Shown here one piece after another: positions 3,378-7,074 of a stretch of DNA of 61,860 nucleotides. Below the pieces are notes generated by a model. That model was not told the origin of the DNA. It did no database searches and saw only the letters and a program-made list of their open reading frames with translations. Both the position numbers and the translations under genes were made by a program. Each line of letters starts with the position of its first letter. Position 1 is the stretch's first letter. The DNA comes from Bacteroidota bacterium (lineage in GTDB: Bacteria; Bacteroidota; Bacteroidia; J057; JAJTIE01): assembly GCA_019638695.1 (NCBI GenBank), contig JAHBTG010000009.1, forward strand, positions 1-61,860, written 5' to 3'.

Positions 3378-4229
3378 ATGGCCATTACCCCCACGCCACT
3401 GGACGGTCCCGAACCCCCACCGCAACAGCAAATGTCCTTTATCGGGCACCTGGAAGCCCTGCGGTGGCATATCATCCGGAGCGCTATCGCCATTACGGTG
3501 GCTATGACGGGTGTGTTTATCTTCCTGCAGGAATTCATGCAGTATGTGGTGCTGGGACCCATGCAGCCGGGTTTTCCCACCAACCGCCTTATCTGCCATA
3601 TAGATGAGACCATGTGCGATACGGCGCCAATCCTGCATGTCAGCCTGCAAGCCACCTCGCCTACCGAGCAGTTTACCAAAGCTATCAGCATAGGCATTGC
3701 TGCGGGCCTGGTGATTGCCTTCCCCTATGTCGCCTGGGAGCTCTGGCGCTTCCTGAAACCCGGCCTCCGGGAACGCGAGATCCGCGTGGCCAGGGGGGCA
3801 GTGGGCGTGGTCAGCTTCCTGTTCTTCCTGGGTGTATCCTTCACCTATTTTGTCATCCTGCCCTTTACGCTTCGTTTCCTGGCCACCTTCCAGATCATGG
3901 ACGGGGTGCAGAACATCTGGCGCATCGGGGAGTTGGTGAGCCTGGTGATCATGTTCTGCATAGCGGGCGGGCTGTTGTTCCAGATGCCGGTACTCACCTG
4001 GGTGCTGGCCCAGCTGGGGATCCTCAAGCCCCGGCTGATGCGCAAGTACCGCCGCCATGCCATAGTAGTCATTCTCATTGCTGCGGGTATCCTCACTCCT
4101 TCCCCGGACGCTTTGAGCCAGCTGTTACTGGCTTTGCCCATATTCGTCCTGTATGAGGTGAGCATTGTCATTGCAGGCAGGGTGCACAGGCGCAAGGAAG
4201 CCCGGCACCAGGAATTTATGGCAGATTAA
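3378..4229 (+). CDS. tatC: Sec-independent protein translocase TatC
   Basis: Membrane receptor of the twin-arginine translocase, which exports folded proteins. The 283-residue protein has a proline-rich N terminus, then the family hallmark HLEALR (residues about 25-30) at the start of the first membrane segment, and several long hydrophobic stretches (for example VGVVSFLFFLGVSFTYFVIL). The periplasmic loop after TM1 is long. The C terminus ends in a short charged tail. No tatA or tatB gene is adjacent, so the partner must be elsewhere. The start is chosen at 3378 because the promoter box lies just before it and no better ATG exists. Confidence 0.93.
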   Translation: MAITPTPLDGPEPPPQQQMSFIGHLEALRWHIIRSAIAITVAMTGVFIFLQEFMQYVVLGPMQPGFPTNRLICHIDETMCDTAPILHVSLQATSPTEQFTKAISIGIAAGLVIAFPYVAWELWRFLKPGLREREIRVARGAVGVVSFLFFLGVSFTYFVILPFTLRFLATFQIMDGVQNIWRIGELVSLVIMFCIAGGLLFQMPVLTWVLAQLGILKPRLMRKYRRHAIVVILIAAGILTPSPDALSQLLLALPIFVLYEVSIVIAGRVHRRKEARHQEFMAD

Positions 4230-4294
4230 GCTCCAAATGGGCTTGTTGGCAACATTTGGGTTGCACCTGTCGTTGTTCTCTGTAAATTGCGGTT

Positions 4295-4444
4295 ATGAGT
4301 AAGAAGAAGTTTATCTTGTTTGCAGTGGCAGGAATGGTCTCCCTGGCCGTGCTGTCTTCCTGCGGTAGCGGGAACAGCATGCTCACTGCCAAGGATTGTC
4401 CCAACGGTATCAAAAAGAATAACCACAAGATAGACAGGCCTTAA
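4295..4444 (+). CDS. Small lipoprotein A, 49 aa (tandem pair)
   Basis: A short frame, ATG at 4295 to TAA at 4442-4444. It encodes a basic N terminus (MSKKK), a hydrophobic core and a lipobox LSSC with the lipidated Cys at residue 23, followed by only 26 residues. The tail reads LTAKDCPNGIKKNNHK and then IDRP. A second gene 12 nt downstream encodes a protein of the same plan with a matching tail, so the pair supports each other as real coding sequence. The mature peptide has one further Cys (residue 35). Function unknown; location likely outer or inner membrane leaflet facing the periplasm. It sits between tatC and a bacilliredoxin gene. Confidence 0.72.
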   Translation: MSKKKFILFAVAGMVSLAVLSSCGSGNSMLTAKDCPNGIKKNNHKIDRP

Positions 4445-4456
4445 TTTTCAATTCCG

Positions 4457-4594
4457 ATGAAAAATATTCCCCGATATCTGCTGTATGTCTTGATAGTGCT
4501 GGGTGGTTTGGGCATGATGGCTTGCAGCACGGGCAATGGCGCATTGTCCATTAAGAAGTCGCATAACTGCGTAAAGCCCAACAACCACAAATAA
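4457..4594 (+). CDS. Small lipoprotein B, 45 aa (tandem pair)
   Basis: ATG at 4457 to TAA at 4592-4594. The product has a hydrophobic signal with lipobox MMAC (Cys at residue 23) and a 22-residue mature part ending LSIKKSHNCVKPNNHK. Aligned without gaps to the 49-aa neighbour, the last 16 residues share L, K, N, K and the block NNHK, with conservative T/S and I/V changes; the single tail Cys has shifted three positions (residue 38 here). The bacilliredoxin start codon follows after 7 nt, so the three genes are probably one transcript. I know no described family for it. Confidence 0.72.
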   Translation: MKNIPRYLLYVLIVLGGLGMMACSTGNGALSIKKSHNCVKPNNHK

Positions 4595-4601
4595 GCGCGG
4601 T

Positions 4602-4982
4602 ATGCTGCCGGGCCGTCAAGCCGGTTCTCACCTGCCAGCAGACTGGCAGATACTTAAGGATCCTGCCGGTTTGGAGCAGCTCATCCATGCCTCGTTTACC
4701 CGTCCGCAACTGGTATTCAAACACAGCACCCGCTGCAGTATCTCTTTTATGGCCATGAGGCGGCTTGCAGAAGGCACGCCGCAGCTTGCCGGGTATGCGG
4801 ATATCCATTATCTCGACCTGATAGCCCATAGGGAGGTGAGTAATGCCGTTGCCGAAAATCTGGCGGTGGCACACGAGAGCCCCCAGACGATCCTTATCCA
4901 CCGGGGCGCATGTATTCTGGACCAGTCACATGGCGGGGTGCTGGTGGATGAAATTGTGGAAGAAGCCCGCAGAGTTTCTTAG
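4602..4982 (+). CDS. Bacilliredoxin of the YtxJ/BrxC family
   Basis: A 126-residue thioredoxin-fold protein of the monothiol bacilliredoxin type, which removes bacillithiol from mixed disulfides on cytoplasmic proteins. The active-site segment VFKHSTRCSISFMA (Cys45) matches the TxCxIS type motif of the family. The later SPQTILIHRGACILDQSHGG segment fits the cis-Pro strand and the C-terminal helix. No signal peptide. It implies that this organism makes bacillithiol. It starts 7 nt after the second small lipoprotein gene. Two further Cys are not in a CxxC. Confidence 0.85.
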   Translation: MLPGRQAGSHLPADWQILKDPAGLEQLIHASFTRPQLVFKHSTRCSISFMAMRRLAEGTPQLAGYADIHYLDLIAHREVSNAVAENLAVAHESPQTILIHRGACILDQSHGGVLVDEIVEEARRVS

Positions 4983-5061: not shown

Positions 5062-7074
5062 ATGACCCGATTTGACCTGATAGACCAATTAAAGCGGGGT
5101 GATGTGCCTGCTATGCACAAGCTGCGGCTCACCTTTGATTACCTGAGGCCCAGAAAGCTCCAGGAAACCGAAGCTTTTACCCAGCGGCTGAATGCGCTGA
5201 TATATGAGCTTGGGCGTAATCCCAAGGCCAAGAAAGAGCTGAGCAGCAGCTTTGAGTTCGTGCTCACCCAAACCACCTATGTGTCGCTGCTCTCCAACAC
5301 GGGAATCAACGGGCATGCTACCTTCTGGGGGGAGTCCTGGCGGCAGATAGGCCATGCGATACTGGCCCCCGCCCGCAATAACAACGACCTGGCAGATGTG
5401 CTGGCCTACATATTTCCCCAGCGCACGGATTACCAGTGGCTGGCCTGGATACGGCCGGTACAGTGGCTGGAGCTCTTTGAGGATGCCCTGGTGCACCGGG
5501 GAGAGGTCCTGGCCGGGCATATCCGCAATGAGATGAGCCATGCGGTCATCCTGCTTTCTCACCGCATTACCGGTATAGGGCTGGAGCCTGTACTCACCAC
5601 CAAGATGCCGGAGGCAGATAACCTGGAATCGCCCTTTCTGCTGCAGAACAAGGAGGCTATCTTCTATTTTACGCACGTCTACCCCAGCCTTACCAGGGAA
5701 GACCTGGCCCGGGGATTGCTGCATGCTGATGTGCTGGACAGCCTGCGGCATTGCCAGCAGCTGCTGGACCAGTTGCGCAAACAGAAGGACCGCTATGGGC
5801 TCACACTGGACCTGCTGTTCCTCATCCGCCGGCTGGAACAGTGCGTGGAGCGGTCTGAAAGGATGATCAACCTCCTGCACAAAACGCACATAGAGAGCGC
5901 TTACCTGGGGTTCTGGGAAATGATCCTGGAGATCATTCCCTACGTTCACCCGCGGAACAACCTGCGCAGGCTGTTGGCGGAGAACGTTTCCATCTTCACC
6001 AACCAGATCGTGGAGCATAGCGGCCGCACGGGGGAAAAGTATATTACCACCACCCGCAAGCAGTACTGGAGCATGTTCCGGGCGGCCACTATTGGCGGGG
6101 TGGTAGTGGCCTTCCTGTGCATTATCAAGCAGGCCATCAAGTCTATGAAAGCAGCGCCCTTTATGGAAGCGCTGGCCTTCAGCTTCAATTATGCACTGGG
6201 GTTCATTGCCATCCACCTGTTCCATGGCAAACTGGCCACCAAACAGCCTGCCATGACGGCCTCCCGCATAGCAGGCGCCATCGAAGGCACGCTGCACGGC
6301 AAACCCTCGGAAGTGCCTTTGCCCACGCTCATTGCGCGGGTATCCCGCTCGCAGATAGCCTCTTTCCTGGGCAATGTGGCCTTGTCATTTCCCATGGCTT
6401 ACCTGCTGGCCATGCTCATCTACTGGATAACCGGGGAGCATTACCTGACCCCCGAGGCCGCACACTACAATCTACACAGCAATAACCCCATCGAAAGCCT
6501 GAGCATACTCTACGCTACCATTGCAGGTGTATTCCTGTTCCTGGCAGGGCTGGTCTCCGGTTACTTTGACAACTTTGTGGTATACTATAAGATACCGGAG
6601 CGGCTGATGGAGTTCCCGCTGCTTAAGTTCTTGCGCCCAGCCAGACGGGAGAAGCTGGTGAAGTATATCAACTATAACCTGGGAGCACTGGCCAGCAATT
6701 TCTTCCTGGGCTTTTGCCTGGGTATGGCCGCTTTTATCGGGTTCATCTTTGGTATTCCCTTCGATATCCGGCACATTACCTTTGTAGCCGGAAGCATCGG
6801 TATGGCAGTGGCCGGGCTGGACTGGCAGCTATCCACCTATGAGTGGGTGATGGCTTTTGCCGGCGTATTCCTCGTCGGGGTATTCAACTTCCTGGGGAGC
6901 TTCAGTTTATCCTTTATGGTGGCGCTACGCGCCCGCGATGTCACCTTCCGCCAATCTCTCCTGCTGTTTACCGGCCTGCTCAGTCACTTTGCCCGGTATC
7001 CATCCCGCTTCTTCTGGCCGCCCAGGCATGAAGACACCAAAACTCCGGCGCTTGTTAATCAACCCAGCGTGTAA
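5062..7074 (+). CDS. Large membrane protein of the SpecificRecomb (Gcr) family
   Basis: The 670-residue protein resembles the family named 'site-specific recombinase' after a gonococcal gene. The N-terminal half (to about residue 330) is soluble and helical. The second half has multiple membrane segments (for example GGVVVAFLCIIKQAI, SFPMAYLLAMLIYWI, ATIAGVFLFLAGLVSGYF and the long FFLGFCLGMAAFIGFIFGIPF). There is no tyrosine or serine recombinase catalytic motif, and a recombinase should not be polytopic, so I take the family name as historical and the function as unknown. aroC begins 9 nt downstream, with its promoter box at the end of this gene. Confidence 0.8.
   Translation: MTRFDLIDQLKRGDVPAMHKLRLTFDYLRPRKLQETEAFTQRLNALIYELGRNPKAKKELSSSFEFVLTQTTYVSLLSNTGINGHATFWGESWRQIGHAILAPARNNNDLADVLAYIFPQRTDYQWLAWIRPVQWLELFEDALVHRGEVLAGHIRNEMSHAVILLSHRITGIGLEPVLTTKMPEADNLESPFLLQNKEAIFYFTHVYPSLTREDLARGLLHADVLDSLRHCQQLLDQLRKQKDRYGLTLDLLFLIRRLEQCVERSERMINLLHKTHIESAYLGFWEMILEIIPYVHPRNNLRRLLAENVSIFTNQIVEHSGRTGEKYITTTRKQYWSMFRAATIGGVVVAFLCIIKQAIKSMKAAPFMEALAFSFNYALGFIAIHLFHGKLATKQPAMTASRIAGAIEGTLHGKPSEVPLPTLIARVSRSQIASFLGNVALSFPMAYLLAMLIYWITGEHYLTPEAAHYNLHSNNPIESLSILYATIAGVFLFLAGLVSGYFDNFVVYYKIPERLMEFPLLKFLRPARREKLVKYINYNLGALASNFFLGFCLGMAAFIGFIFGIPFDIRHITFVAGSIGMAVAGLDWQLSTYEWVMAFAGVFLVGVFNFLGSFSLSFMVALRARDVTFRQSLLLFTGLLSHFARYPSRFFWPPRHEDTKTPALVNQPSV

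Follow-up and report, generated by a model that had tools for sequence, protein, structure and literature searches.

In the window (the whole stretch of 61,860 nucleotides of DNA that was analyzed), two very short ORFs lie in tandem between tatC and a bacilliredoxin gene, raising the question of whether they encode genuine lipoproteins and, if so, what proteins of this size may do in the cell envelope. As the first-pass annotation had claimed, two tiny adjacent ORFs with a lipobox, of 49 and 45 aa, are present at exactly the positions that it gave, with 12 nt between LP1 and LP2 and 7 nt between LP2 and brxC, which is on the same strand (Table 1). Its naming of the neighbors, BrxC downstream and TatC upstream, was confirmed by Pfam and NCBIfam. 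In a genome-wide search, brxC and tatC are each present in a single copy in the window's genome, and a search of the genome's contigs with BrxC as the query returned no relative.

Table 1. Features around the tandem micro-lipoprotein genes, in positions of the window.
Feature	Position	Strand	Basis
tatC	3378..4229	+	PF00902 E 7.6e-62; upstream of LP1
Weak promoter-like TTG-N19-TAAATTGC	4261..4290	+	Read from sequence, directly 5' of LP1
LP1, micro-lipoprotein	4295..4444	+	49 aa ORF with lipobox; lipid Cys at residue 23
LP2, tandem micro-lipoprotein	4457..4594	+	45 aa ORF with lipobox; lipid Cys at residue 23
brxC/ytxJ, monothiol bacilliredoxin	4602..4982	+	PF11009 E 2.9e-29, TIGR04019 3.1e-29 (above cut-off)
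Membrane protein of 670 aa, after brxC	5062..7074		Pfam 'site-specific recombinase' family PF10136

The LP1 product consists of MSKKKFILFAVAGMVSLAVLSSC followed by GSGNSMLTAKDCPNGIKKNNHKIDRP (cleavage context ...LAVLSSC), and that of LP2 of MKNIPRYLLYVLIVLGGLGMMAC followed by STGNGALSIKKSHNCVKPNNHK (cleavage context ...LGMMAC). Each has a single Cys besides the lipid Cys, and the tails end in NNHKIDRP and NNHK, respectively, with IDRP making up four extra residues in LP1. The mature parts, compared from the lipid Cys through NNHK, align gap-free along 23 residues and are identical at 11 of them (shuffle p = 1.5e-5); the gapless NNHK match described earlier therefore stands, while its reported extent of 16 residues was an understatement. 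The tail Cys is indeed at differing positions, offset by three. In the window's own genome, the profile matched LP1 at E 5.1e-13 and LP2 at E 7.3e-14, both sequences being part of that profile. AlphaFold modeled the signal peptide of LP2 as a helix and the rest only at low confidence, with no fold of its own for the mature part.

A micro-lipoprotein family in Bacteroidia

LP1 and LP2 belong to a conserved, unnamed micro-lipoprotein family found across much of Bacteroidia, such that the original observation is real and was understated. Homologues of the tail were found at two levels. In the sister genus (G001), the order tatC, LP1, LP2, brxC is identical to that of the window and the NNHKIDRP tail of LP1 is conserved exactly, while in other members of the window's order the peptide gene adjoins brxC and the peptide ends in ...C-Q-A-x-K-x-x-N-H-R, giving this order-level branch the tail consensus C..A.K..NH[RK]. 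Profile A1, which was built from the order-level peptides and counts its source sequences among its matches, recovered copies in most of the 22 genomes of the order at E 1e-7 to 1e-18. Profile A2, built from other families of the class in which brxC adjoins the peptide SSC-K-S-H-E-R-C-P-A-Y-G-K, matched 180 of the 247 sampled Bacteroidia genomes at E<=1e-3, with strong matches (E of 7e-7 or better) in about 130 genomes among the matches listed. The consensus of this main branch is SC[KR][ST]HE[KR]CPAY. When the species collection was scanned for an exact DNA version of the core, at least 120 matches were obtained; the record titles of the matches listed are almost all those of Bacteroidota MAGs, with the cultured isolate Salibacter halophilus KCTC 52047 also among them. 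A phylum-wide profile search gave matches in 15 of 247 genomes, all within the class, to which all of the genomes listed from the sample belong. Among the loci that were fetched by profile and by pattern and then scanned, 166 of 167 contain a recognizable peptide.

Across 159 distinct peptides, the architecture is a signal peptide followed by a mature peptide of 15–38 residues (median 22). The lipobox comprises a basic n-region, a hydrophobic core, and a small residue followed by Cys, with Ser, Ala or Gly at -1 in 154 of the 159 and F, L, V or I common at -3. Conservation is concentrated in the first 10–15 residues past the lipid Cys, where a second Cys lies within the motif C-[PQ]-A-[Y]. This second Cys is present in 159 of 159 peptides, an apparent invariance that is inflated because the retrieval of some loci, by pattern or profile, favored or demanded this residue, and exactly two Cys are present in 153; Ala follows the second Cys at +2 in 151 peptides and Tyr at +3 in 132. 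In the order-level branch including the window, the spacing between the two Cys is longer and variable. The five residues after the lipid Cys contain on average 2.4 basic and 0.7 acidic residues. Surface lipoproteins of Bacteroidota bear an acidic export signal, and because the peptide is basic and does not carry such a signal, it is expected to face the periplasm. A metal site formed by His and Cys was dropped as an idea, His not being constant among the listed peptides.

The peptide genes are under purifying selection. Where the substitution pattern of noncoding DNA was looked for, in congeneric genes elsewhere in the family, selective constraint was found instead: seven congeneric pairs of close relatives, picked without regard to protein identity, gave pS 0.60 and pN 0.12, and dN/dS was 0.12 in 22 identity-chosen pairs, a value that is biased low by this choice and includes two duplicate pairs. 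The Bacteroidota promoter consensus comprises TTTG or TTG, a spacer, and TAnnTTTG (PMC7366714). Such a promoter is found upstream of the peptide gene in 71 of 157 loci versus 3.4 expected, and on the opposite strand in 3 of 161; the -7 box is mostly 20–60 nt 5' of the ATG, and the micro-lipoprotein gene thus usually appears to have a promoter of its own. The window has no exact -7 box, and the promoter-like element in Table 1 may be a degenerate form of the TTTG/TAnnTTTG promoter. The ORFs are very short and no annotation family matches them, as would be expected of chance ORFs or noncoding DNA, but relatives occur in >100 species with a pS/pN of about 5 and promoters of their own; the substitution pattern refutes this explanation for the family and the sister-genus orthologue refutes it for the window pair, leaving it a negligible probability. 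The view of the pair as genuine lipoprotein genes, of the sort that annotation overlooks, is therefore supported.

The micro-lipoproteins fall in no Pfam, NCBIfam or PDB family, and the matches obtained were essentially to the signal peptide. The PG1828 family lipoprotein (NF050142) is likewise a short Bacteroidota lipoprotein, but its match is weak, at 13–19 bits (at most 18.9) versus a curated 50, and is mostly confined to the signal peptide. BamK (NF053690) reached at most 14.3 bits versus a curated 120, again mainly through the signal peptide, and the NCBIfam matches to BamK, BamJ, BamI and PG1828 were rejected on this ground; PDB profile searches returned signal peptides only. A description of the family was not found in the literature searched, the search being limited in extent. 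A family that a large proportion of the sampled Bacteroidia possess thus has no name, no annotation model in the libraries searched, and no structure. It may have been overlooked because many of the sampled lineages lack it and those that carry it are mostly uncultured.

Entericidins EcnA and EcnB are tandem small cell-envelope lipoproteins, and the new family resembles them where tandem lipoproteins of 40–50 aa occur, as in the window, the sister genus and some other lineages. A toxin and antidote pair of this kind is nonetheless very unlikely: tandem copies are exceptional (two copies in only 19 of 166 loci, a single gene in 147), the gene is mostly single-copy and syntenic, and the combination of a Pfam match with paired antidote and toxin genes was not found.

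Several loci merit separate mention. Tandem copies are seen in separate lineages (L035, L123, L126 and L132), one copy often being shorter or more diverged (e.g., ...CPAYAIELIVK). Pattern matches were also obtained in MAGs named Paceibacterota (L180), which has a typical peptide and looks mis-binned, and Hydrogenedentota (L227), which has no profile match. In one family (f46), a longer lipoprotein of 66 aa with a basic tail lies directly 5' of brxC (L003:1281-1481); its second Cys is five residues past the lipid Cys or nearby, and it is perhaps a divergent relative.

Conserved gene order and the link to brxC

Both sequence types of the family occupy a common slot, consisting of the uracil-DNA glycosylase gene ung or a THUMP-like methyltransferase gene pointing away, the peptide gene, an optional brxC, and a convergent OsmC-like gene. 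In many genomes of the class, the OsmC-like gene is followed by a gene for a secreted protein of about 260 aa and then by what we take, from its sequence, to be lipA. Because gene order is shared, as is the anatomy of a lipid Cys, one more Cys and, mostly, Ala two residues on, the two types are probably orthologous loci. The window locus has lost most of this order and has tatC instead; tatC adjoins the peptide genes only in the window's own family (G000, G001), and the suggested tatC link, and with it tatC as part of the system, was rejected as lineage-specific. The protein of about 260 aa is barrel-like and without a Pfam or NCBIfam match, and its gene keeps this place, with the OsmC-like gene on one side and lipA on the other, across Bacteroidia (L075:2112-2900, L085:2148-2930, L092:2349-3107 and 20 more loci). 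An identity of the THUMP-like methyltransferase with the bacillithiol methyltransferase NmbA is not claimed, the NmbA paper making no mention of a THUMP domain or PG_1098.

The proximity to brxC, which the first-pass annotation had singled out, is not accidental. Among the 97 genomes in which both genes could be placed, brxC is within 1 kb of the peptide gene in 50, spanning 19 families, where random placement would give about 0.1 genomes. Presence is nevertheless statistically independent: 118 genomes have both genes, 69 the lipoprotein only, 32 brxC only and 28 neither (Fisher p 0.22). The idea that the lipoprotein strictly depends on brxC was therefore discarded. As ung and OsmC are also kept in place, the brxC link may in part be inherited gene order. 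BrxC/YtxJ (PF11009) itself, although a gene neighbor in many families, is a separate cytoplasmic enzyme unrelated in sequence to the micro-lipoproteins.

Three alternative roles bear on this neighborhood. Translated leader peptides that control brxC, by Cys-codon attenuation or translational coupling, would suit the 7 nt gap in the window and the short distances in linked genomes, but in roughly half of the genomes that have both genes, and in every one without brxC, the peptide gene lies elsewhere, selection acts on the mature peptide, and the lipobox is conserved; we give this explanation a slim chance at best. It is rather unlikely that the peptide is a thiol-stress lipopeptide tied to bacillithiol, co-made with brxC under oxidative stress and bearing an exposed Cys that acts as a sensor or sacrificial thiol and becomes oxidized or S-bacillithiolated. 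The adjoining brxC, typically downstream and on the same strand, and the OsmC-like gene on the other side favor such a role, as do five sampled families without BshC (f32, f39, f63, f68 and f71), in which a hand comparison revealed no strong lipoprotein match, an absence that is suggestive, though confounded by descent. Against it are the many genomes with the lipoprotein and without brxC, the lack of a known periplasmic bacillithiol pool, and the near universality of BshC (231 of 247 genomes), which leaves co-occurrence with low power and confounded by phylogeny. Somewhat unlikely, in our estimation, is an outer-membrane micro-lipoprotein with a purely structural or lipid-handling role that has nothing to do with redox control, whose second Cys only dimerizes it and whose brxC adjacency reflects inherited order. 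This would account for a gene that often stands alone with its own promoter and for ung, OsmC and lipA being likewise kept in place, but would not require so constant a Cys-Pro-Ala-Tyr motif.

A possible outer-membrane partner

The micro-lipoproteins give the impression of small functional components of the cell envelope, and a thiol or envelope role, already supposed by the first-pass annotation, may be drawn from the near-invariant second Cys and the two thiol-related neighbors, brxC and the OsmC-like gene. The reading that we tentatively prefer, by analogy with LptM acting on LptD, is a periplasm-facing lipopeptide that would serve as a subunit or chaperone of an outer-membrane partner and act via its thiol. 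The anatomy of the peptide, which is lipid-anchored, has no fold of its own and conserves a dozen residues and a single constant thiol, suggests docking on such a partner. Following established lipoprotein biology, the peptide would receive a lipid and be delivered to the periplasmic side of the outer membrane, in the inner leaflet, where its anchor would hold the short conserved block, with the free thiol, close to an outer-membrane protein complex. In that position, the peptide would assist the complex either as a small subunit or in its maturation, probably by disulfide exchange or by pairing of its one Cys. The product of the adjacent brxC would act in the cytoplasm, repairing thiols blocked by bacillithiol, in the same thiol-stress neighborhood and with no contact with the lipoprotein. 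Since the Cys-Cys spacing of the order-level branch is longer and variable, a single mechanism for both branches is assumed. Several observations weigh against this lipopeptide-subunit mechanism: lipoprotein presence does not track brxC, the conservation of the neighboring ung, OsmC and lipA means that brxC adjacency could be inherited order without shared function, and BrxC and OsmC are cytoplasmic, whereas the lipoprotein would not be. With conservation confined to a dozen residues and one thiol, the family is readily accessible to genetic work and could give a way into the disulfide chemistry of the Bacteroidota envelope, about which little is known.

LptM (formerly YifL; PF13627/NF047847), the LPS translocon maturation lipoprotein of enterobacteria, is similarly a very small lipoprotein, located in the outer membrane, with a short conserved block directly after the lipid Cys. 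The N-terminal mature region of LptM is sufficient to co-purify with the LPS translocon, LptD-LptE (PMC12644819); the ten residues that follow its Cys have been resolved close to the inter-domain disulfides of LptD, and LptD oxidation is impaired when LptM is lost (PMC10567701, PMC12644819). The near-invariant second Cys and the CPAY or NHR motif are, in contrast to LptM, features of the new family, for which no Pfam match to LptM was found at E up to 1 or 0.1; NF047847 gave E 0.37, below cut-off, over residues 1–21 only, i.e., the signal peptide. We consider it unlikely that the family is a separately evolved Bacteroidia counterpart of LptM, a thiol micro-lipoprotein that would complete or redox-mature LptD or another disulfide-containing barrel, with brxC retained next to it as the cytoplasmic arm of a shared thiol homeostasis.

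LptD is the first candidate partner because Bacteroidia LptD bears one conserved Cys pair, which makes LptM-like chemistry possible and is a lead rather than evidence of a link. The pair does not discriminate, being present also in genomes without a convincing lipoprotein match (e.g., G002 and G030). It is conserved in LptD (PF19838) at 25 of 28 Bacteroidia loci (L283-L310), with one Cys lying about 660–720 residues, and the other about 45 residues, from the C-terminus, suggesting that Bacteroidia LptD may have a single inter-domain disulfide.
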